Assembly (NCBI RefSeq): GCF_009936035.1
Contig: NZ_QWEO01000001.1
Span: forward strand, 248,001-312,000
DNA length: 64,000 nt
Source: Neglectibacter sp. X58
GTDB taxonomy: Bacteria; Bacillota; Clostridia; Oscillospirales; Acutalibacteraceae
Reading direction: 5' to 3'
Positions within the stretch are counted from its first letter, which is position 1; each line of letters opens with the position of its first letter. The position numbers were made by a program, and so were the translations under genes. Positions 25,800 through 34,751 of this stretch are shown here, piece by piece. The notes under the pieces are model-generated. The model was not told where the DNA came from. It saw nothing but the letters and a program-made list of their open reading frames with translations, and did no database searches.

Positions 25800-26696
25800 G
25801 TGTACGATTTCCATTCTATGTTCGCGCAGTATCTTATGGAGCAGAAGGCCAATTCTGCTAACACGCGGGAATCTTATTTGCGGGATGTCCAGTATTTTTT
25901 GGAGTTTCTTGGCAGGCTGGATATTACGCCTCTAGAAGCAGACGAACGGGATATCCAAGCCTTTGTGCAGCATTTGGCTGATTTAAAGCGCTCTACCACT
26001 ACTATTTCTCGGAATTTGGCCTCTGTCCGCTGTTTTTATAAGTTCCTTATTATGCAGGGGCTTGTGGATCATAACCCGGCCAAGGCGGTAAAGCTGGAAA
26101 AGGCAGAGAAAAAGCTGCCCCAGGTTTTGCTGGGGGAGGAGATTGAACTGCTGCTTGACCAGCCGGATATCACAGAGCCGAAGGGCTGCCGGGACAAAGC
26201 TATGCTGGAGCTGCTGTATGCGACAGGCATCCGGGCCTCGGAGCTTATCAATCTGAACATACAGGACATCAACCTGCGTTCCGGGGTGCTGTACTGCCGG
26301 GGCAGCAAAGGCGTGCGTTCCATCCCTATTTACCCTTCTGCTGTGGTGGCGGTGTCTGACTACATATACCGGATGCGGGGCTTGATTGCCGGGCCGGACA
26401 GCGGCGAGGCGCTTTTTGTGAACCTGAACGGCGGCAGGCTGACCCGCCAGGGCTTCTGGAAGATTGTAAAAGGCTATGCGGTGGAGGCAGGCATTACAAA
26501 AGAAATTACGCCTCACACCATCCGTCACTCCTTTGCCCTTCATCTATTGGAAAACGGCGCTTCTGTCAAGGACATTCAGACAATGATGGGCCATGCGGAT
26601 ATTTCCTCTACCCAAGTGTATGTACAGCTTTTGGACAGCCATGTGAACCAGGTGTATCACGACTGCCATCCCAAAGCCCAACGGAAGCTAGGGTAA
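25800..26696 (+). CDS. xerD: Tyrosine recombinase XerD
   Basis: A 298-residue Xer recombinase with an N-terminal SAM-like domain (1-100) and a complete catalytic set: R145 (ATGIRASEL), K170 (GSKGVR), H239 and R242 (HTIRHSF), H265 (MGHAD) and nucleophile Y274 (TQVYVQL). XerD resolves chromosome dimers at dif with XerC. The GTG start at 25800 has AAGAAGGTG upstream. Placement after spoIIM supports XerD identity. A second Xer-type gene and a dif-like site lie within 2.1 kb. Confidence 0.92.
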   Translation: MYDFHSMFAQYLMEQKANSANTRESYLRDVQYFLEFLGRLDITPLEADERDIQAFVQHLADLKRSTTTISRNLASVRCFYKFLIMQGLVDHNPAKAVKLEKAEKKLPQVLLGEEIELLLDQPDITEPKGCRDKAMLELLYATGIRASELINLNIQDINLRSGVLYCRGSKGVRSIPIYPSAVVAVSDYIYRMRGLIAGPDSGEALFVNLNGGRLTRQGFWKIVKGYAVEAGITKEITPHTIRHSFALHLLENGASVKDIQTMMGHADISSTQVYVQLLDSHVNQVYHDCHPKAQRKLG

Positions 26697-26709
26697 AGGA
26701 GGGAGCGGC

Positions 26710-27615
26710 TTGCCTTTCTTTGGTTTGTTCAGGCCTTATGGCAGGTCTGGATCTGGGGGGCGCAGAGAGGAAAAGCCCAAAGCAGCGCCAGCGCGGTTTT
26801 TTCAGCTTTGGGGGCGGAAATTTTCCCAACTGGTGCGGCTGAACCTGCTTTTCCTGGTTCCGGTTCTGCTGGTGCTGGCGTTAATGGCGGCGCTGGAGTT
26901 TTTCTTGCCGCACTATCTGATGCGTTTGCCAGAGGCGGGAAACGGTATACAGTGGTGCAGATGGGAGCAGTTTTCCCACCCGGCTCCTTATGAAATGAAA
27001 GGCTTCTGGCTGGATATGTGGAGGCTGTGGGCAGTTCCGGTGCCGCTGGTGCTGCTTTCTCCATTTTGGGCAGGGCTGTCCCTTGTTACTAGGAATTATG
27101 TAAGGGAAGAACACGCTTTTATCTGGTATGATTTCTGGGACGCTGTGAGGGCCAACTGGAAAAGCTTCCTGCTAGGGGGCGCTGTGTGTTATCTTCAGTT
27201 TGCAGTGCTGTCCACTTCCATTGCCTGTTATGGCTGGGCGGCCCAAAGCCAGCCCTTGTATTATGCCCTTTTATGGCCCTGTGTGATGCTGGGGCTGCTG
27301 TGCCTGTTTGCCCAATATTATCTGCCAGTTATGCTGGTTACGTTCCATTTGAAATGGAGACAAGCCTACAAAAATGCTTTGATTTTTTCAGTTGTAGGCC
27401 TTGGGCGGAATCTGCTGCTTACGCTCCTTTTAAGCGTACTGGTGCTTTTTTGCAGCCTGCCTTTGCTGGTGCTGAATCTTTTGGTGTTTTCTATCTTCTT
27501 CGGGCTGTTCGGCTGCGGTTTTTCCATGTTCCTGGTGAATTTTATGGTTTATCCTGTTGTTGAGCGCCATATGATGCAGAAATCCTGTGAGGAATCTATG
27601 ATGGACAAAAAATAA
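26710..27615 (+). CDS. YesL-family (DUF624) membrane protein
   Basis: A 301-residue protein with a basic N-terminus and five or six transmembrane helices (starting about residue 44, 109, 155, 190, 230 and 255). The FWDAVRANWKSFLLGGAV and MLVTFHLKWRQAYKNALIF segments are typical of DUF624. B. subtilis YesL lies in a pectin locus, but the function of the family is unknown. The start is TTG at 26710, with AAAGGAGGG 6 nt upstream. It is the last plus-strand gene before the orientation switch. Confidence 0.75.
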   Translation: MPFFGLFRPYGRSGSGGRREEKPKAAPARFFQLWGRKFSQLVRLNLLFLVPVLLVLALMAALEFFLPHYLMRLPEAGNGIQWCRWEQFSHPAPYEMKGFWLDMWRLWAVPVPLVLLSPFWAGLSLVTRNYVREEHAFIWYDFWDAVRANWKSFLLGGAVCYLQFAVLSTSIACYGWAAQSQPLYYALLWPCVMLGLLCLFAQYYLPVMLVTFHLKWRQAYKNALIFSVVGLGRNLLLTLLLSVLVLFCSLPLLVLNLLVFSIFFGLFGCGFSMFLVNFMVYPVVERHMMQKSCEESMMDKK

Positions 27616-27616
27616 A

Positions 27617-27662
27617 AGCAAGTCTTGAAAGGCGGTTCGTCTCTCAAGGCTTGCTTATTTTT
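27617..27662. terminator. Bidirectional terminator at the orientation switch
   Basis: AGCAAGTCTTGA (27617-27628) pairs with TCAAGGCTTGCT (27644-27655), followed by TATTTTTT on plus; the minus side has TTTTATTTTTT. It separates the convergent YesL-family and Xer genes. Confidence 0.85.
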
Positions 27663-27672
27663 TGCTGTTTTT

Positions 27673-28680
27673 CTATTCCTCGTCTTTCCGTTCTTTCTTC
27701 TCGCTTTTGGGAGATACATAGGCCAGAGGGTTGGCATTTATGGCGCTTTCCATCTGATTGCTGGAGGTGTGCGTATAGATTTCTGTGGTGCCCAGATTGG
27801 CATGGCCCAGAATGTCCTGGAGCACCCGGATATCCACGTCGCCGTAGCGGTACATTAAGGTGGCGGCTGTGTGGCGCAGCTTGTGTACGGAGTAACCAGG
27901 GCCGCTGAGGCCGATTTTATCCAGGTATTTCTTTACCATAGCCTGCACAGTTTTAGGGCTGATGCGGGTTTTCCGGTTGCTGAGAAAGAGGGCGCTGCGA
28001 TCAATTACGCCGTCCTTGGGACGTACCGCCAGGTAGCTGTTGATAGCGTCCAGGCAGGCTTGGTTTAGGTATACAATGCGCTCCTTGTTGCCCTTGCCCA
28101 GGATGCGAAGAGTGGAATTGTTATAGAGCACATCTGAAATGTTGATGGAAACCAGCTCAGCAAGGCGCATTCCGCAGTTGAGAAACAAGGTCAGGATACA
28201 GCGGTCACGCTCCGCGTCCGGGCCTTCTACTGCCTGCAGCAGTTCGATGCTTTGTTCGAGAGAAAGGAAATGGGGGAGCGATTTCTTTTTTTTAGGTGGG
28301 GTCAGGTTTTCTGTGGGGTTTTCTGCCAAAAGCTTTTCGTGGACGGTGAGGTATTTGAAAAAGGATTTCAGCGAGGAGGATTTCCGCTGGCGGGTGGAAC
28401 TCATATTATTGCGCTCGTCTGCCACAAAATTCATAAACTCGAACAGGTCATAGGTTTTGATGTTCCGAACAAATTCCAAGCCCACGTCTTTTACGGAAAC
28501 TTCTTCCAGTGGCACGCCGGGCTGTACCAAGGCCCAATTGACCTTTAAGAAACGGAACAGCGTGCGCAGATCCATGCAGTATTCATCTACAGTTTTGGCG
28601 GACAAACCTTTGATGTTGCGCAGATACATGGCGTATTCCTGAACGAGATCGGACATTTCCAGTTTGATTGAAAAACTCAT
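27673..28680 (-). CDS. Xer-type tyrosine recombinase (XerC-like)
   Basis: A 335-residue tyrosine recombinase with an N-terminal SAM-like domain and full catalytic set: R172 (NCGMRLAEL), K199 (GKGNKER), H266 and R269 (HKLRHTA), H293 (LGHANL) and Y302 (EIYTHT). It is longer than typical XerC (~300) because of an insert in the N-terminal domain (~50-75). The ATG at 28680 has AAAGGA 11 nt upstream. Its promoter region contains the dif-like site 78 bp away. It lies outside the element's direct repeats, so it is a host gene and the plausible XerD partner. Confidence 0.85.
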   Translation of the reverse strand: MSFSIKLEMSDLVQEYAMYLRNIKGLSAKTVDEYCMDLRTLFRFLKVNWALVQPGVPLEEVSVKDVGLEFVRNIKTYDLFEFMNFVADERNNMSSTRQRKSSSLKSFFKYLTVHEKLLAENPTENLTPPKKKKSLPHFLSLEQSIELLQAVEGPDAERDRCILTLFLNCGMRLAELVSINISDVLYNNSTLRILGKGNKERIVYLNQACLDAINSYLAVRPKDGVIDRSALFLSNRKTRISPKTVQAMVKKYLDKIGLSGPGYSVHKLRHTAATLMYRYGDVDIRVLQDILGHANLGTTEIYTHTSSNQMESAINANPLAYVSPKSEKKERKDEE

Positions 28681-28757
28681 GGCAAGGATTCCTTTCTGGG
28701 ATTTTAGCCGGGTTTTATGGAATTTCAGAGGCACAAATATGTTTCTGCCTCCCCTGA

Positions 28758-28785
28758 ATTATACAAAATATCAATTTTGTATAAT
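28758..28785. other. dif-like Xer recombination site (host attachment site)
   Basis: Two perfectly inverted 11-bp arms, ATTATACAAAA and TTTTGTATAAT, flank a 6-bp centre TATCAA: the 11-6-11 layout of dif. The right arm shares 8 of 11 bases with the E. coli XerD half-site (TTATGTTAAAT). It lies 78 bp upstream of a Xer gene, near xerD, and at the point where gene orientation switches. Perfect symmetry is unusual for a XerC/XerD site, so a dedicated single-recombinase site is possible. The left arm is host sequence; the right arm is shared with the element repeat. Confidence 0.65.
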
Positions 28786-28839
28786 TGCTCTTTTTGGAAA
28801 AAGCCCCTTTCAAAGGTGCTGGCTCCCTCGTCCCTCCTG
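28773..28839 (+). repeat. Left direct repeat of the integrated element (attL)
   Basis: A 67-bp sequence repeated at 30730-30796 with 62 of 67 identical; the first 37 bases are identical. It contains the right arm of the dif-like site and the 14-bp palindrome CTTTTTGGAAAAAG. Confidence 0.85.
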
Positions 28840-28940
28840 CGTGTTCCGCTGGGTCAGCGGCGCGCCTTCAGTCGGCCCGGGCTTCCGGGCCTCCTTGCGG
28901 ACGCTGGCCCGCGCTGGCGCGCGGGAAGGTTGAAAATAAA
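28840..28940 (+). promoter_or_regulatory. GC-rich hairpin cluster, possible single-strand origin
   Basis: Three adjacent palindromes, CCGCTG-ggt-CAGCGG, GGCCCGG-gctt-CCGGGCC and a CCCGCGC/GCGCGGG pair, are packed in ~100 bp just inside the left repeat, with no gene. Rolling-circle replicons carry such structured noncoding regions as complementary-strand origins, so this role is suggested by context. Confidence 0.4.
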
Positions 28941-28970
28941 GCCCAGATTCCATCTTTTCCTTTCCGGGCC

Positions 28971-28999
28971 TTGACAAATCCCACAAGAGATAGTATTAT
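28971..28999 (+). promoter_or_regulatory. Promoter of the element's noncoding RNA
   Basis: TTGACA (28971-28976), 17-bp spacer, TATTAT (28994-28999): the best SigA match in the element. It points away from both protein genes. Confidence 0.8.
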
Positions 29000-29005
29000 T
29001 GTAAT

Positions 29006-29161
29006 CACGGAAACAATCGCCAAGTCTCGGGCTTGCCTGCGGGCACCCGAGACGGGCGAGGTTTACGTACAAAACAATAAGACTGTGCTCGGCCCTGATT
29101 GTGTCACTACAAAAAGGGTAGCACAAAGGCCCCGGACTTGTCAAGCCCGGGGCCTTTTTTT
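29006..29161 (+). ncRNA. Predicted ~155-nt structured RNA of the integrated element
   Basis: Delimited by a consensus promoter and an intrinsic terminator, with no ribosome site and no ORF of note. Stem 1: GTCTCGGG (29024-29031) with CCCGAGAC (29046-29053), continuing inward through TGCC/GGCA on a TGCG tetraloop and outward through CGCC/GGCG. Stem 2: GTGCT with AGCAC plus CCCT/AGGG. Alternatively ACAATC near the 5' end can pair with GATTGT. It does not match the signatures I know for 6S, SRP, tmRNA or RNase P. It could be a replication regulator or a distinct functional RNA. Confidence 0.6.
29128..29161 (+). terminator. Terminator of the element RNA
   Basis: GGCCCCGG (29128-29135) pairs with CCGGGGCC (29147-29154), extended by CTTG/CAAG, then seven T. 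The downstream end lies 40 bp before the convergent recombinase gene's stop. Confidence 0.9.
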
Positions 29162-29201
29162 GCAACAATCCTGAAAGTGTTGCAAAAAGGTTACAAAATT
29201 G

Positions 29202-29714
29202 TCAAAATTTGTCGCTTAGCGCATACAAGGCCGTTGTTTCCGGCCTGTCATGCCGCAAGGCTTCCTGCACCTGCTCCAAGCTCCCGCTCTCCCGGAACCT
29301 CTCCACAGCAAAGATTTTCCGGGCCGTGTGGGGCGATACATGGGCCTTTTCGGCCTGAGCCACCCTTCTCACCCAACGATACACCGTAGACCTGCTCACG
29401 GGCCTGCCAGGGGCCTTCTTGCTTTCAAAGACCAGCTCCCTCTGCCTGTCCAGCCACCAGCCCCACAAAGACGCCTTGAGATAGGCTGGCACATCCAGCA
29501 CAACCGTCTTGCCCGTCTTGCGCTCCCGCACAGGGGCGCTCCAAAGCACCTGGCTAAACGTCAGGCCCAGCACGTCTGAAATCCGCAGGCCCGTTTCCAG
29601 GCTCAGCAGAAGCGCCACCTTGTACGTCTCCGGCATCTGGGAAATCAACCGCACGAACTCCCCCCTTTCCAAAAATTCAGACCGCAATTCTCCCCCCAAC
29701 CTTGCGGTTGTCAT
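29202..29714 (-). CDS. Catalytic-domain-only tyrosine recombinase of the element
   Basis: A 170-residue protein with all catalytic positions of tyrosine recombinases: R44 (TGLRISDV), a lysine in ERKTGK (K66/K69), H129 and R132 (HTARKIF), H155 (LRHDRP) and Y164 (ALYAL). There is no N-terminal core-binding domain, so it is about half the usual size. ATG at 29714 lies 20 bp after the rep stop; no strong ribosome site is seen, suggesting translational coupling. A longer frame opening at 29942 overlaps rep and lacks family similarity. It may integrate the element itself or assist host Xer proteins. Confidence 0.8.
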   Translation of the reverse strand: MTTARLGGELRSEFLERGEFVRLISQMPETYKVALLLSLETGLRISDVLGLTFSQVLWSAPVRERKTGKTVVLDVPAYLKASLWGWWLDRQRELVFESKKAPGRPVSRSTVYRWVRRVAQAEKAHVSPHTARKIFAVERFRESGSLEQVQEALRHDRPETTALYALSDKF

Positions 29715-29734
29715 ATTGTCAACAAGGAAATATA

Positions 29735-30499
29735 TTAAGTGGGCGTATCGCCTGTAGGCCGATAGCGGAACTCCAACCCCGCATCCTCTACCACCACCAC
29801 CTTTCCCGGGATTTCCGCCCAGTTGTCGGCCTGGTAATAAACCAGCCGAGGGGGCCGCAAGTCTCCCCCGTGAAAGAAGTACCGCCCACCAATGCACCCT
29901 GATTCCGTAGATTTTGTAATATATTTTGTGATGTAGCGACAAACTGCTCCGTAATCTCCGGACAGCTTGACAGCAGTTGTGAAGCCATAACGCCAGTTAG
30001 ATATATTGTATATGATTCTATTATCTTTCGTTTTGTGCCCACTTTCACACAGCCGAAGCCCTCCACCGTTAACCAGACCGTGAAAGTGCAACGCTCCATC
30101 CTTGTGCAGTTCTGGCACAAGGATGTATTGAAAACCATTTCGCTCCACACGGTTGGAGAGCCATTGTCCGAGCCTAAGCACACATTTTTTGTAGTCATAT
30201 CGGTCTATCTCCCTCTCATCCAGCGTAAGGGTAATGAAATACTCCATGGGATTGCAGACAGCCAGCTCGAACAATTGTTTTCTTGCCCGGGCCGCAGACC
30301 TCCCAGCGCTTTCCCCCTCCGCCGATTGTTTCCGTGTTTTCTTCTTCCTGTCCCCGACTTCCTCCACAGCCAGCCGCCGAAAGATAGGACGGTTTGCGAC
30401 AACGTCCTCCAGCACTTCCCCATTACAGGGGTTGATTTTCATGCGTCCGTTGCAGTAGACATCACTTTCAGTCAATAAATTTATAATGCGGTTATCCAC
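29735..30499 (-). CDS. Rolling-circle replication initiator (HUH, phiX174 gpA-like)
   Basis: A 254-residue Rep with the HUH set: motif 1 FITLTLD (88-94), motif 2 HFH (H138, H140) in GALHFHGLVNG, and motif 3 YITKYITK with two tyrosines (Y189, Y193) spaced as in phiX174 gpA (YVAKYVNK). Such enzymes nick one strand at an origin and release circular single-stranded DNA. The start is uncertain: GTG at 30499 fits the open frame but has no good ribosome site, and ATG at 30442 is the alternative. It is co-oriented with the recombinase gene. The structured region upstream probably holds its origin. Confidence 0.82.
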   Translation of the reverse strand: MDNRIINLLTESDVYCNGRMKINPCNGEVLEDVVANRPIFRRLAVEEVGDRKKKTRKQSAEGESAGRSAARARKQLFELAVCNPMEYFITLTLDEREIDRYDYKKCVLRLGQWLSNRVERNGFQYILVPELHKDGALHFHGLVNGGGLRLCESGHKTKDNRIIYNISNWRYGFTTAVKLSGDYGAVCRYITKYITKSTESGCIGGRYFFHGGDLRPPRLVYYQADNWAEIPGKVVVVEDAGLEFRYRPTGDTPT

Positions 30500-30597
30500 A
30501 AGTAATTTATTGAAGGAATACTGTGCCTATTATCAAGTATAAGAAACAGCCAGAGCCAGCGAACCTCCGCCCTCCTCAGCGTCAGCACCCAAGTTGC
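30500..30597. other. Upstream region of rep
   Basis: About 100 bp without a gene. On the minus strand a TATACT/GATAAT pair of -10-like boxes lies around 30530-30545 with only weak -35 candidates, so the rep promoter is not firmly placed. Confidence 0.35.
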
Positions 30598-30614
30598 GGG
30601 GTTTTTCCAAAAAG
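30598..30614 (-). repeat. Inverted partial copy of the attachment repeat
   Basis: GGGG followed by TTTTTCCAAAAAG is the reverse complement of CTTTTTGGAAAAAGCCCC at 30747-30764 with one base deleted. The two copies flank the long hairpin at 30665-30738, so the whole segment can fold on itself. Confidence 0.6.
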
Positions 30615-30660
30615 TCTCGCCTGCGCTCGAACCGCAATTAGCGCGCGCCCGGATATTGCG

Positions 30661-30688
30661 CGCTTACAAAATTGGCGTTTTGTATCAT
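30661..30688. other. Second dif-like core inside the element
   Basis: An 11-6-11 site: left arm CGCTTACAAAA (7 of 11 matches to the host site), centre TTGGCG, right arm TTTTGTATCAT (10 of 11 matches). It lies 54 bp from the core in the right repeat. Confidence 0.6.
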
Positions 30689-30738
30689 TTCGCGCATCAA
30701 GTATATGCGCGAAAAGAGACAAAACGAGAAATTTTGTA
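30665..30738. repeat. Long hairpin joining two dif-like cores (possible single-strand attP or origin)
   Basis: Left strand 30665-30697 pairs with right strand 30705-30738 around the 7-nt loop CAAGTAT. It forms ten perfect pairs (TTTCGCGCAT/ATGCGCGAAA), twelve more positions with two mismatches, a 2-by-3 internal loop, then nine perfect pairs (TACAAAATT/AATTTTGTA). The TACAAAA/TTTTGTA duplexes on each side of the internal loop recreate a dif-like site on folded single-stranded DNA. Confidence 0.75.
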
Positions 30739-30796
30739 TAATTGCTCTTTTTGGAAAAAGCCCCTTCTTATGGTGCTGGCTCCTTCGTCCCTCCTG
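30730..30796 (+). repeat. Right direct repeat of the integrated element (attR)
   Basis: The counterpart of 28773-28839 (62 of 67 identical; first 37 identical). Here the core arm TTTTGTATAAT (30732-30742) is preceded by a poor left arm, so unlike the left junction this end is not a symmetric site. Confidence 0.85.
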
Positions 30797-30799
30797 GCA

Positions 30800-31531
30800 T
30801 TAAGCCAAGGGCAAAATACCGCCTACATCTATAAGAGGATTTTGAGTCAGTTCCCAAATGGAAACGCTGCGGCTTTCGCAGAAAGCCTGGATAGCTTTCC
30901 CATCGGGATGGCTATCCAGCCTGCCGGAAACTGCCAGCACATCGGCGGAGACTTTGCCGCAGCATCCACCAATGAAGCCAGTGTCATAGCCGGGCAGCCT
31001 GATGAAGCCAGGCTGGATTTTCAGTACGGAAAATCCTTTTGCTTCCAGGGCCTTTACCATGCCTGCGTCAGCAGTGATACAAGCCTTTTCATCTATCAGT
31101 GCTGTAGAGCAAGCCGCATATCCTTGCCGCACTGGCAGCAGTTCCAGTCCCTTGGCTTGAGCCGCGTTTTGTATGCCTGCATCCAGCGTTTGGGGATTCC
31201 CCACCAGCCATTTGTCCCATACAAAGCCGTTGCACAGCACATCGCAAGGATACCAGCTTTCTGGCTGACGAATGGTTTCTTTTACAGAAAGCCCCAGGCT
31301 GGACAGCTTGTCTTGTAAAGCGCTTTTCCTTAACACAAAGGCTTCTCGTTCAAAAAGGAACACTTGCATGTCAGGATGGTATCCCAGCGGAGCGGGCAAA
31401 CGGGAATCGAACAAAGTTTTAATAGGGGTAATGCCCTGCCGCTTCAGGCTGTCTGCCAGTTCTGGATATTCCCCGGAAACCAGCGCCAGCTTTGCCGGGC
31501 GGCAAGGCAGCCGCGGCGTGTGCGCGCTCAT
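30800..31531 (-). CDS. Guanidino-modifying-enzyme-fold protein (DUF6873-like)
   Basis: A 243-residue protein with repeated alpha/beta motifs: PLGYHPDMQVFLFE (~40-53), the YAACSTALIDEKACITADAGMVKALEAKG stretch, GFIGGCCGKVSADVLAVSGRLDSHPDG, and the C-terminal LIDVGGILPL. This resembles the DUF6873 group of GME-fold proteins (relatives of agmatine and arginine deiminases), but the characteristic catalytic residues cannot be assigned with confidence. The ATG at 31531 overlaps the radA stop by 4 bp, so it is co-translated with radA. Its stop lies 4 bp from the right repeat of the element. Confidence 0.6.
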   Translation of the reverse strand: MSAHTPRLPCRPAKLALVSGEYPELADSLKRQGITPIKTLFDSRLPAPLGYHPDMQVFLFEREAFVLRKSALQDKLSSLGLSVKETIRQPESWYPCDVLCNGFVWDKWLVGNPQTLDAGIQNAAQAKGLELLPVRQGYAACSTALIDEKACITADAGMVKALEAKGFSVLKIQPGFIRLPGYDTGFIGGCCGKVSADVLAVSGRLDSHPDGKAIQAFCESRSVSIWELTQNPLIDVGGILPLA

Positions 31532-32907
31532 GTGGTGGCGGCCTGGAAGGCCTCCCGGATATTCCGGGCGCCGATAACCTCCAGCCCTTCCAGCTTGCTT
31601 TTGGACACGTTTTTCAGCCCATGGTAAGGCAGGATACACCTAGTGAAGCCTAGGCGGCTGATTTCCGCAATGCGCAGTTCTACGTGGCTGACGCTCCGCA
31701 GTTCTCCTGCCAGGCCAATTTCCCCGAACACCACAGTATCTTCCCGAATGGGCATGTCCTTCAGGCTGGACACCAGCGCTACAGCTACCGCCAGGTCTAC
31801 AGAGGGCTGATCCAGCCGCAGGCCCCCCACCACGTTCAGGTATGTGTCTAAATTGGAAAAATAGAAGCCAGCCCGTTTTTCCAGCACAGCCAGAATCAGG
31901 GCCATGCGGTTGTTGTCAAAGCCTGTGGCCATGCGCCGGGGCGTGCCAAAGCCTGAGGTGGTGGCAAGCCCCTGTATCTCCGCAAGCAAAGGCCGGGAGC
32001 CTTCCATGACAGCGGTGACGCAGGTGCCGGAGGCATCCTTGGGCCTGCCGGACAGCATGGCAAGGGAAGGGTTCTCCACCTGCTGCAGCCCCTTCTCTCC
32101 CATATCAAACACGCCGATCTCATTTGTAGAGCCGTAACGGTTTTTTACTGCCCGCAAAATGCGGTAGGTCATCTGCCGGTCGCCCTCAAAGAGAAGGACA
32201 GCGTCCACAATATGCTCCAGTACCTTTGGCCCGGCAATGGCCCCGTCCTTATTCACATGTCCCACCACAATAACCGGGATGTCCAGGGCTTTGGCACAGC
32301 GCATCATCACGTTGGTGCATTCCCGCACCTGGGTAATGCTGCCTGGCGAGGAGGAAAGCTCTGTGTAGTTCATAGTCTGGATGGAGTCGATCATCACCAA
32401 GTCCGGCTTTTCGGCCCGGATTTGTTCCACTATGTACTGGATATCCGTCTCCGTCAGGATCATCAGGTTCGGGCTTTGCACCCCCAGCCGGGAGGCCCGC
32501 AGCTTGATTTGCCGGGCAGACTCCTCCCCGGACACATAGAGCACCCGCAGATTCTGCCCCAGATATTCGCAGATTTGCAGAAGGATGGTGGATTTGCCAA
32601 TGCCGGGATCGCCGCTTATCAGCACAAGGGAGCCTTTTACGATGCCGCCGCCTAGCACCCTGTCCAACTCGGACAGGCCTGTGTGGTAGCGGTGCTCGTC
32701 TGTGGTGCTGATTTCCCCGATAGGCACTGCCCGGGAGGCCATGCCGCCTACAGCCCGCTTTACAGCCGCACGCTGGGCACTTTCCTGCTCCTTCACTGTC
32801 TCCAGAAGAGTGTTCCACTCCCCGCAGGAAGGGCATTTTCCTGCCCATTTGGGGGATTCAAACCCGCACTGGGTACACTGGTATATGACTTTGCTTTTGG
32901 CTGCCAT
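31528..32907 (-). CDS. radA: DNA repair protein RadA (Sms)
   Basis: A 459-residue RadA: N-terminal zinc finger CTQCG ... CPSCGEW (~11-31), Walker A GDPGIGKST (~99-107), the RadA-specific KNRYGSTNEIG (~264), and a C-terminal Lon-like domain (PSVDLAVAVALVSS). It acts as a RecA-like helicase promoting branch migration in recombinational repair. AAGGAATG precedes the ATG. It is followed by an overlapping GME-fold gene. Confidence 0.95.
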   Translation of the reverse strand: MAAKSKVIYQCTQCGFESPKWAGKCPSCGEWNTLLETVKEQESAQRAAVKRAVGGMASRAVPIGEISTTDEHRYHTGLSELDRVLGGGIVKGSLVLISGDPGIGKSTILLQICEYLGQNLRVLYVSGEESARQIKLRASRLGVQSPNLMILTETDIQYIVEQIRAEKPDLVMIDSIQTMNYTELSSSPGSITQVRECTNVMMRCAKALDIPVIVVGHVNKDGAIAGPKVLEHIVDAVLLFEGDRQMTYRILRAVKNRYGSTNEIGVFDMGEKGLQQVENPSLAMLSGRPKDASGTCVTAVMEGSRPLLAEIQGLATTSGFGTPRRMATGFDNNRMALILAVLEKRAGFYFSNLDTYLNVVGGLRLDQPSVDLAVAVALVSSLKDMPIREDTVVFGEIGLAGELRSVSHVELRIAEISRLGFTRCILPYHGLKNVSKSKLEGLEVIGARNIREAFQAATT

Positions 32908-33965: not shown

Positions 33966-34751
33966 TTATCCATACCATTCCTCAGGAACTGCTTGTGCGT
34001 CCAGGAAAAGATCGGGATTTTTTTCCAGCAGTGCGCAGGCAGTTGCCCGCATCTTACGGGCGTTGCCGATGATGCATTTGGCATCTCCAAACGTGCCATA
34101 CCGGATGGCTCCATGCTTCAAAAATGGCTTTTCCAGCTTGTCATAGTTTTCAGAAACGTCCCCGGCAGGGCAGTAATGAAACCGCGCGTCTGTGCGGTAT
34201 TCTTCGCCCTGAGGCCCTATAATAGTGATGGGCCGGGTTTCCTCTGTAAGGCGGTTTGGAATGCCTTCCCACTCCTCTACGCCATGAATAAAGGTGTTGG
34301 AGCGCAGGGTGCAGCCTAAAAAGAGAATGTCCGCGTCCAAGTCCAGCAGTCTGCCCCAGCAGCCATCACGGGGGCAGGGGCTGTGGGCCTGTTCCTCGCC
34401 GGCTGTGTAGGCCGCGGCACCCTTTCCCAGGGCGGCTACTGAATGGGTGGGATGCAGGGAGCGCACCACGCCGGGCCTGTGCCGGAAAAGCTCGGGCAGG
34501 ATGCCTACGCAGGAGGGAAGCGTGCGGGAGTCGAACACAGTCTGCTCCTTGCCTTGCCCAATGTATTTCCAGGTGTGGGTGGGAAAAATGAGCAGCCCCT
34601 CCCCCATGTACTGGCACCAAGCGTCCAGGACTGTATCCGCACCGCCCTCTACTGGGCCGATGGCCTTCATGGAGGAATGGATGAGCAAAGCGCCTTGGGG
34701 GTTGACACCCATGTTTTTAATGTCTGCCAGCAAATCGCTTTTTGTATACAT
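33966..34751 (-). CDS. AAC(3)-family N-acetyltransferase
   Basis: A 261-residue member of the aminoglycoside 3-N-acetyltransferase fold: LLIHSSMKAIGPVEGGADTVLDA near the N-terminus, LLIFPTHTWKYIG, SLHPTHSVAALG with the conserved His, and LFLGCTLRSNTFIHGVEEWEG. The fold includes true resistance enzymes and many chromosomal proteins of unknown acceptor (such as B. subtilis YokD). Its codon use and context look native, with no mobile genes nearby, so drug resistance should not be assumed. The start is the ATG at 34751, with a weak CAGGG upstream. Confidence 0.82.
   Translation of the reverse strand: MYTKSDLLADIKNMGVNPQGALLIHSSMKAIGPVEGGADTVLDAWCQYMGEGLLIFPTHTWKYIGQGKEQTVFDSRTLPSCVGILPELFRHRPGVVRSLHPTHSVAALGKGAAAYTAGEEQAHSPCPRDGCWGRLLDLDADILFLGCTLRSNTFIHGVEEWEGIPNRLTEETRPITIIGPQGEEYRTDARFHYCPAGDVSENYDKLEKPFLKHGAIRYGTFGDAKCIIGNARKMRATACALLEKNPDLFLDAQAVPEEWYG

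Follow-up and report, generated by a model that had tools for sequence, protein, structure and literature searches.

Mobile elements that exploit the host Xer system are, to our knowledge, known mainly from Proteobacteria. In Vibrio, they form the CTX/RS1/TLC system, in which RS1, as another satellite besides TLCphi, is packaged by an inovirus helper. The accessible text of PMC4246890 describes the functional attP of CTXphi as a pair of inverted dif-like sites, formed by folding of a single strand and mismatched at the centre. A set of small circular plasmids comes from the rat cecum, and the available part of the report on it (PMC3913684) does not discuss dif integration.

The locus analysed here, within a window of 64 kb (the whole stretch of DNA under analysis, 64,000 nucleotides), is very probably a minimal rolling-circle replicon living integrated in the chromosomal dif of an Oscillospirales bacterium. 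We read it as a Xer-exploiting, inovirus-related mini-replicon of Oscillospirales, and no description of such a mini-replicon was found in literature searches. The preliminary description had proposed a 1,957-bp element between 67-bp direct repeats, and these were confirmed at 28773-28839 and 30730-30796, with a spacing of 1,957, 62 of 67 positions identical and the first mismatch after 37 perfect bases. Inside the repeats, the two ORFs scanned had family support, one for Rep and the other for a tyrosine recombinase (hereafter mini-Int). By sequence, Rep and the catalytic domain of mini-Int are both intact. The locus does look like the small integrative replicon proposed, with a recombinase reduced to its catalytic domain and without any cargo that could be recognised. 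A common interspersed repeat, considered in the same description, was not observed: within its own genome the element DNA matched its own locus only, besides one 33-bp inverted match within the element. The features of the locus are listed in Table 1.

Table 1. Features of the element and its chromosomal flanks (positions in the window)
Feature	Position	Strand	Basis
Second host recombinase, XerD-like, 298 aa	25800..26696	+	TIGR02225, 307 bits, under cut-off 329.6
Host Xer recombinase, 335 aa, beside dif	27673..28680	-	One match at E<=1e-60 in 52/60 genomes, own included
Intact chromosomal dif, palindrome AATTATACAAAAT-ATCA-ATTTTGTATAATT; left junction of element	28757..28786	.	Pattern counts, palindromy, GC skew
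Element 3' end, 53 bp; could form outer stem of attP	28787..28839	-	Part of repeat D1; 75% complementary to 30583-30614 (inverted repeat I2)
GC-rich stretch close to element 3' end	28840..28930	.	Read from sequence
Sigma-70-like promoter TTGACA-17-TATTAT, directed against rep and int	28971..28999	+	11/12 consensus positions
Predicted structured RNA, end hairpin then T's; candidate complementary-strand origin or small RNA	29006..29157	+	Fold -78.7 kcal/mol, z -7.11; end hairpin I11
Mini-Int, Xer-like tyrosine recombinase, catalytic domain only, 170 aa	29202..29714	-	PF00589, 65 bits vs cut-off 27.1
Rep, inovirus-type HUH endonuclease, 254 aa	29735..30499	-	PF23343 REP_ORF2-G2P, 61 bits vs cut-off 27.8, E 1.3e-16
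Candidate double-strand (nick) origin ACTTGATAATAGGCACAGTAT	30518..30538	-	ACTTGA motif close to Rep start
Inverted partner of 53-bp end, outer attP stem	30583..30614	-	Inverted repeats I2 and I3, 75%; paired in predicted 241-nt fold
Predicted attP hairpin, would rebuild dif-like duplex from one strand	30660..30746	-	-25.5 kcal/mol, z -6.95
Second, internal dif-like site (attP2)	30666..30683	-	Pair scan of 64 kb
Right junction, hybrid dif half-site (attP1)	30719..30743	-	Sequence, empty-site comparison, dif-like pair scan
Second copy of element 3' end, outside site	30744..30796	-	Repeat D1; by eye unlike G002 intergenic sequence
DUF6873 gene, right chromosomal flank, start uncertain	30800..31639	-	PF21778

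The site next to the host xer gene is a 30-bp palindrome, in which 13 of 13 arm positions are palindromic. Allowing up to two mismatches, its pattern was present at a single place in each of 23 genomes out of 29 from the genus, the own genome included, and a control pattern in none of the 29. GC skew flips at this site (+0.101 left and -0.069 right in the 64-kb window), and in three single-contig genomes with dnaA at position 304-664, xer is located at about 1.77/3.8, 1.13/2.5 and 1.55/3.0 Mb (sizes rounded). Judged from sequence, the integration site is the chromosomal dif, at which cells resolve joined chromosomes. With the element in place, a complete dif (28757-28786) lies next to xer, and the opposite junction is a hybrid half-site (30719-30743). 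Two of the checks suggested in the preliminary description gave positive answers: empty sites do exist in related genomes, as measured in six congeners, and the same Rep-recombinase pair was detected at the same site in other species, insertions at this dif being present in genomes G028, G013 and G046. A palindrome candidate was obtained at 30 of 34 element loci, those of L174 and L187 being doubtful, and none was found at L119, L166, L173 and L183.

The 67-bp repeat is composed of a 14-bp dif arm and 53 bp of the element end, while the site proper reaches leftward beyond the repeat, to 28757. The repeats, taken as element bounds in the preliminary description, are real, but the 67-mer was ruled out as the attachment core because the junctions of relatives L120 and L117 have only the dif arm in common; the actual target, dif/Xer, had not been recognised. 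The run of the repeat 53 bp past dif could be taken as a chance or homologous-recombination duplication unrelated to the gene pair. This explanation is already contradicted, since the dif site, the empty sites and the relatives fit site-specific insertion and since the L120 and L117 junctions lack the 53-bp extension; we give it hardly any credence. The 53 bp outside dif is the element's own end, and the copy at this position is probably a remnant left by an earlier copy of the element. Simple integration would not be expected to produce this additional copy beyond dif, which in this respect counts against a replicon simply integrated at dif.

The attachment site is a pair of dif-like sites, predicted to fold as a single-strand hairpin, as in the attP of CTXphi. 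The pair 30666..30683 and 30719..30743 is the only one of its kind in the 64 kb, and no pair appeared in 40 shuffles. The predicted 241-nt fold (z -8.0) also includes pairing of 30583-30614. A scan of 57 loci or records identified paired dif-like sites in 24, among which three are second copies of the same record; with the pattern used, the other 33 gave none. In five chosen loci, the z-scores of the attP hairpin were -7.0, -6.5, -8.5, -4.4 and -6.0; for L202, the centroid fold differs from this hairpin. The marks of a CTXphi-type site, two inverted dif-like sites, folding of one strand and a mismatched centre, are present in the prediction. With respect to integrative mobile elements exploiting Xer (IMEX), insertion at a chromosomal dif and a dif-like attP were both recognised, and on the point of 'no own integrase', the element carries its own Xer-type catalytic domain.

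Mini-Int retains R44, K66, H129, R132, H155 and Y164, all invariant in 25 of 25 aligned proteins, and its AF2 model (pLDDT 91.5) gave XerA and XerH as the best PDB matches. Genome searches detected mini-Int in 13 genomes, and in every one of them it is located at dif/Xer. Among 14 named mini-Int loci with full flanks, Xer is nearby in 10, and no Xer of at least 200 bits was found within 16 kb at the other four. A scan of viral contigs with mini-Int yielded 38 loci at 22-35% identity.

The Rep protein had been assigned to the phiX174-gpA type in the preliminary description. Membership in this family was rejected, because the Phage_GPA score was 10 bits against a cut-off of 31.4; the family is inovirus ORF2/G2P, though the YxxxY arrangement is present. 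Residues H138, H140, Y189 and Y193 are invariant in seven of seven aligned Reps, and a search of solved structures returned no convincing sequence relative. Of 39 stretches, 33 have the motif ACTTGA close to where Rep begins, as compared with about 10% in shuffles. An HUH Rep together with a candidate nick origin, as expected for a rolling-circle plasmid, can be recognised by sequence; no relaxase family, which would be expected for an IME, was found in the two ORFs scanned (Rep and mini-Int). In the Rep tree, the element Reps cluster with 3 label changes, against 17.4 in shuffles; since 3 changes are needed, a single origin of these Reps was not obtained. The Rep of the window falls within a supported clade made up of 23 element-locus Reps.

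Since prophages may be reduced to a handful of genes, the element might be a decayed inovirus prophage at dif that has lost its mobility. This reading is very unlikely in the face of open-frame Rep and mini-Int pairs in many species, the supported clade of element-locus Reps, the catalytic residues kept in all aligned mini-Ints, and the retention of both the paired sites and the origin motif by many relatives.

As to the promoter-terminator RNA unit of the preliminary description, the promoter-like pair and the strong fold followed by a hairpin and T's stood, but the terminator scan did not list hairpin I11 at the end of the structured stretch. Sigma-70-like sites numbered 6 in the region, against 1.9 expected, and antisense promoter units of similar look were seen by eye in L070, L186 and L198. 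An Rfam scan gave four matches, all under the gathering score.

For the integrated mini-replicon, the following mode of action is proposed. Rep would nick the origin of a circular form and roll off single strands, in which the hairpin would present a dif-like duplex. Host Xer would then recombine this hairpin with the chromosomal dif, the mismatched centre permitting one strand exchange, and chromosome replication would complete the insertion, leaving the host with a working dif. At the hybrid half-site, mini-Int most likely becomes part of the Xer synapse or activates it, so that integration or excision would proceed apart from the usual FtsK-timed reaction. Priming of the complementary strand is the most likely function of the antisense promoter-hairpin unit. 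From cell to cell, the element would probably travel as a passenger of filamentous phages exploiting this same dif, or in the manner of a plasmid.

Among the relatives are small circles, a tandem dimer and arrays that adjoin genes of filamentous phages. Contigs that close at 2,895 and 3,362 bp carry the Rep and mini-Int pair, although for circular contigs in MAGs tandem arrays could be the source. Of the 47 named loci, 46 were counted, L208 (18 bits) having been dropped beforehand; H79/L215, with several long integrase-like ORFs, was also dropped. Mini-Int matched 22 plasmid records, of which six small 'uncultured bacterium' ones were inspected. In one variant of the preferred reading, the elements would be a family of integrative rolling-circle plasmids whose Rep can be exchanged, with mini-Int and the dif-like site as the conserved unit and no phage involved. 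In its favour, the Rep of small mini-Int circles is Rep_1, Rep_OBD or RepL, and at the dif of L118 and L163 mini-Int is also accompanied by Rep_1; against this variant, Rep is of the inovirus type in 31 of the 46 named loci and of the Rep_1 type in six, and arrays with inovirus genes exist. On balance, we consider its chances to be slightly short of even.

Somewhat less probable is a second variant, a self-replicating filamentous-phage satellite that is parked at dif and packaged by an inovirus helper like TLCphi. The inovirus-type Rep, which groups beside the Reps of inovirus contigs from clostridia, agrees with this view, as does the element's putative replication module without virion genes, no morphogenesis gene being recognised in the element. 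Genes for the inovirus-type ATPase were detected near mini-Int in four of the 46 named loci (L172, L175, L176 and L194) and in one of 10 other element loci scanned (L118), but until they were added to the ATPase profile, those of L175 and L194 reached no more than 27 and 32 bits. The profile search found no morphogenesis ATPase in 12 of 13 element-bearing genomes, including the own genome (G000), G028, G013 and G046, and the single positive genome, G331, has its ATPase in the profile itself. PF05707, a weak model for clostridial ATPases, had no match in 29 same-genus genomes. No resident helper phage was found in the own genome with either PF05707 or the 14-sequence ATPase profile. For Inoviridae itself, a morphogenesis ATPase and coat genes would be expected, whereas the own genome gave no ATPase match, and Rep and mini-Int were the sole family-supported products among the ORFs scanned.

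More speculatively, and in our view rather improbably, mini-Int, which is devoid of a DNA-clamp domain, and the folded double dif might be a plug-in module across unrelated rolling-circle Reps, making tiny replicons parasites of the terminus; mini-Int would function solely when host Xer shares the synapse, freeing the reaction from FtsK control, and the elements would ride dif arrays with filamentous phages and spread in the virions of these phages. If so, they would be the gut Clostridia counterpart of the Vibrio system, built around a new kind of recombinase helper.

The integrated mini-replicon extends the Xer-exploiting elements to a family of near-minimal size spread across Oscillospirales, and offers a simple system for single-strand integration at dif and for the capabilities of a catalytic-only recombinase. 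It also locates the probable dif and adjoining Xer gene in this group, and flags the chromosome terminus as a gathering place of small replicons and filamentous phages.

Among plasmid records with a related Rep, 27 of 34 are from Staphylococcus, and those listed are of 1.4-1.7 kb; such a Rep can therefore serve a tiny replicon. Unlike the element, these plasmids, with records down to 1,435 bp, could hardly accommodate a recombinase, as judged by size. The plasmids pRGI01058 and its kin (HG796421 etc.) are circles of 2.2-3.8 kb with Rep and mini-Int, which, from their names, probably belong to the rat-cecum set. HG796421, a 2,238-bp circle, also carries paired dif-like sites, but in the five circles scanned Rep belongs to the RepL, Rep_1 or Rep_OBD type. 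LME-1 of Legionella resembles the element in its dif mimic, in leaving one intact and one modified dif, and in a host with a single-recombinase system; the available part of its account (PMC9765430) mentions neither mini-Int nor a folded attP, the comparison being one of sites and not of gene content. TLCphi is also a replication module without morphogenesis genes parked at dif, a likeness drawn apart from Rep, but its attP is a 28-bp duplex site (PMC4246890, accessible text) and not a predicted folded pair, and the element differs further in having mini-Int and no helper found in its own genome. CTXphi shares insertion at dif (PMC4246890, same text) and rolling-circle replication (available part of PMC4439123), the latter suggested for the element by its sequence. 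The element, at about 2 kb and with no virion, secretion or toxin genes recognised, is distinct from CTXphi in carrying its own Xer-like catalytic domain and in residing in an Oscillospirales host with a palindromic dif beside xer.

The direct repeats that bound the element in the preliminary description proved to be real, with 62 of 67 bases identical, the first 37 without exception, and a spacing of 1,957 bp. A common interspersed sequence was not seen: in the draft genome of 3.36 Mb, the segment has no match beyond its own locus. Inside the repeats are two family-supported open reading frames, for a Rep of 254 aa and a recombinase of 170 aa (mini-Int), on the same strand with a 20-bp gap. 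Since the G+C content of the element (0.532) is close to that of both flanks (0.519 and 0.534), composition neither supports nor opposes a foreign origin. An antisense promoter-hairpin RNA unit is located downstream of the mini-Int gene, where it may act as a complementary-strand origin or encode a small RNA; three other loci (L070, L186 and L198) hold units of like appearance whose promoter is perfect or nearly so.

Features of the element and its surroundings (window coordinates)
Feature	Position	Strand	Remark
Lone half-dif-like sequence	22437		TTTTGTATAATT, 6.3 kb from dif
Second recombinase	25800-26696		XerD-like, score below the cut-off
Xer-type recombinase gene	27673-28680	-	neighbour of palindrome
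dif palindrome	28757-28786	.	perfect 13+4+13, completed by sequence just left of the first repeat
Left direct repeat	28773-28839		
Promoter-hairpin RNA unit	28971-29157	+	antisense
Segment resembling part of attP region	29191-29224		71%
Further dif-like site	29193		end of mini-Int gene
mini-Int	29202-29714	-	catalytic-domain-only tyrosine recombinase
Rep	29735-30499	-	inovirus-type HUH endonuclease
ACTTGA motif	30518-30538		
attP2	30666-30683		internal dif-like site
attP1	30719-30743		dif-like site, right-junction hybrid half-site
Right direct repeat	30730-30796		
DUF6873 gene	30800-31639	-	right chromosomal flank
ORF	33966-34751	-	putative member of the aminoglycoside 3-N-acetyltransferase family, by motif

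Allowing up to two mismatches, the palindrome was found in exactly one place in 23 of the 29 same-genus genomes, the X58 genome included, and a control pattern in none of the 29. By coordinate comparison, 22 of these 23 have a Xer match, and in 21 genomes the palindrome is upstream of this match, no more than about 0.15 kb away; in G028 the distance is 4.3 kb with an element in between, and G013, the 23rd, has no Xer match, its contig ending there. Among the six genomes without the site, five (G004, G006, G009, G015 and G024) gave neither palindrome nor Xer match, and the sixth (G023) has, upstream of its Xer gene, a palindrome of similar form that departs from the pattern at more positions. 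For the Xer protein itself, 52 of 60 genomes, its own counted, each had a single match at E<=1e-60. Three single-contig genomes have their best dnaA match at 304-664 and xer about 47%, 45% and 51% of the way along the chromosome (lengths rounded), and the GC skew in the window is +0.101 left of the palindrome and -0.069 right of it. From the single site per genome beside xer, the dnaA and xer positions and the skew flip, we take the palindrome for dif, situated at the replication terminus. Two host Xer genes, the XerD-like and the dif-adjacent, flank another ORF at the replication terminus (25800-28680 in the window), and a second Xer paralogue is located nearby in several relatives too. In two loci, L053 (G007) and L067 (G028), dif and its AGGGGAG flank have the opposite orientation with respect to xer.

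The empty site, for which a comparison of related genomes had been proposed, was found: congeners show the order DUF6873, dif and xer without the element. The distance from the DUF6873-like C-terminus, identified by the DVGG motif alone, to dif is 35-83 bp in six (G002, G027, G019, G008, G003 and G011) and 677-692 bp in five other congeners; among the 23 loci scanned, 12, including the X58 locus and G028, yielded no value, since either the end of the protein or the site, or both, escaped the patterns. A stretch of about 680 bp between the DUF6873-like end and dif was observed in L038, L040, L045, L048 and L049, and is possibly another dif-linked insert or gene.

The same pair of genes was also sought between other direct repeats, and G028, of the same genus, carries a 4.1-kb Rep and mini-Int element at the same dif between 98-bp repeats. 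In G013 a mini-Int lies 0.5 kb from dif, cut by the contig end, and in G046, of another genus, Rep and mini-Int are located between a half-site and a full dif with other arms (ACTTGCACAAAAT), directly upstream of its Xer gene. The mini-Int searches detected 3 of 148 genomes at E<=1e-15 and 11 of 398 family genomes at E<=1e-20, the X58 genome counted in each, giving a combined total of 13 genomes. Of the 13 mini-Int stretches, 12 contain a strong Xer gene, the thirteenth (G013) having a dif site, and the palindrome was recognised in 12, the sole miss being L119. A scan of 84,980 species genomes with mini-Int yielded 47 loci, of which L208 was excluded, leaving 46 named loci in a set that overlaps the 13 genomes. 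A Xer homologue of at least 200 bits was found within the fetched stretch at 25 of these 46, and at 10 of the 14 having full 8-kb flanks; L162, L168, L175 and L202 showed none at this score despite such flanks. An inovirus-type Rep relative is present in 31 of the 46 and a Rep_1-type Rep in six.

The AlphaFold2 model of mini-Int (mean pLDDT 91.5) gave XerA and XerH as the best structure matches. Six residues, R44, K66, H129, R132, H155 and Y164 (numbering of the first sequence), are invariant in all 25 aligned mini-Ints, and from the family we take them to be catalytic. No core-binding domain was detected in mini-Int by Pfam scan. Because mini-Int has the recombinase chemistry without the usual DNA clamp, a role as partner or activator of the host Xer is favoured.

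The two dif-like sites at the right junction (30666 and 30719) are 53 bp apart; the 64-kb window contains no other pair of this kind, and 40 dinucleotide shuffles gave none at all. On the rep-carrying strand, TACAAAAT and GTTTTGT are predicted to pair with ATTTTGTA and ACAAAAC, leaving the centre unpaired (-25.5 kcal/mol, z -6.95). Within the five sequences folded, which were chosen by us rather than sampled, similar hairpins with other apical stems were predicted for G028 (z -6.5), circle HG796421 (z -8.5) and L207 (z -6.0), that of L202 being less sure (z -4.4, centroid differing). By pattern scan, paired dif-like sites were detected in 24 of 57 loci or records (three being second copies of the same record), and no pair in 33 with the pattern applied; in many other elements the second site is instead located near the 3' end. 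Host dif arms vary by lineage, and by eye the internal site of the element tracks them, as with AACGAAACAAAA beside AACGCAACAAAA in L181 and L194. A wider predicted fold (z -8.0) brings the 53 bp beyond dif into pairing with 30583-30614. The additional bases of the 67-bp repeat belong to the 3' end of the element itself, which, on this predicted fold, could be the outer stem of attP.

Simple integration would not explain the 53-bp copy of this end outside dif. At the corresponding place G002, with the closest Xer, has unrelated sequence by eye; G028, like X58, has an outside copy of its element end, of 77 bp. The same element end precedes both sites in L118, with tandem filamentous-prophage copies beside dif; L117 has a truncated mini-Int before the half-site, and L175 holds a tandem dimer with a period of 2,544, identical over most compared windows. 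At the junctions of L120 and L117, no outside copy of the element end was found. Most likely, the outside copy is what remains of an earlier tandem copy.

Six circular plasmid records of 2,238-3,769 bp were opened from 22 matching mini-Int. The Reps of five scanned circles are RepL, Rep_1 (three) and Rep_OBD, that of L210 being recognised by eye only, and the HG796421 circle carries paired dif-like sites. The source of the six is probably PMC3913684, a part of which reports that inverse PCR gave the expected product for 38 of 40 circles tested and that the 40 include three with a coding sequence for an integrase domain. Two contigs with inovirus-type Rep and mini-Int, L198 and L167, close via 141-bp exact overlaps to 2,895 and 3,362 bp, and L189 (Rep_1-type) closes on itself by 77 bp; tandem arrays could also be the source of such contig-end overlaps.

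The HxH pair and two tyrosines (YxxxY) of Rep are kept in all seven aligned sequences. Of 39 stretches taken from elements and inovirus contigs, some of them truncated, 33 have ACTTGA between -400 and +160 relative to the Rep frame, compared with about 10% in base shuffles; we take the motif in these elements to resemble the phiX174-type nick site. A total of 27 phage records match Rep, all below 60% identity, the two opened being Inoviridae, and 27 of 34 matching plasmid records are from Staphylococcus. A tree was built of 55 Reps, with 33 of them coming from element loci and the other 22 from phage records, viral contigs and two genomic loci of inovirus-like type; on it the label of origin needs three changes, against 17.4 in shuffles. 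The window Rep groups with that of G028 (99/99) within a clade of 23 element-locus Reps (100/98). From this clustering, the elements seem to form separate lineages and not to be prophages in recent decay. L071 of G099, a contig of 7,557 bp whose ends overlap by 127 bp, is an inovirus-like genome with a related Rep.

Inovirus-type ATPase genes were found in L118 and four of the 46 named loci (L172, L175, L176 and L194), in a scan that left out the window stretch, L068 and L123. The first search gave L175 no more than 27 bits and L194 no more than 32, their later high scores coming from a profile containing both. That the element is a strict satellite of filamentous phage is opposed, however, by the profile search of the X58 genome, which gave no ATPase match, and by the 13 element-bearing genomes, of which G331 alone is positive (two copies 5.6 kb apart, the sequence itself in the profile). 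The tandem prophage copies at dif in this genome (L118, 2460-8651) carry Rep_trans and a morphogenesis ATPase.

No recognisable description of dif-integrated Rep and recombinase elements in Clostridia was found among the papers listed by full-text literature searches, with subscription papers and preprints mostly outside their coverage. By term search, neither 'dif site' nor 'Xer' is in the main text of PMC6813254 and PMC10061712, nor 'IMEX' in that of PMC8138268. We read the element as a near-minimal Xer-exploiting one with a catalytic-only recombinase, spread across Oscillospirales; its site, architecture and family are well supported, and a folded attP, as predicted, is probable. Parts of PMC5357621 and PMC3025954 describe Xer/dif systems, among them some that use a single recombinase and have dif next to its gene. 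For CTXphi, a part of PMC4246890 describes two inverted dif-like sites that form a functional attP(+) on single-strand DNA, where XerC performs strand exchange and replication completes the integration.
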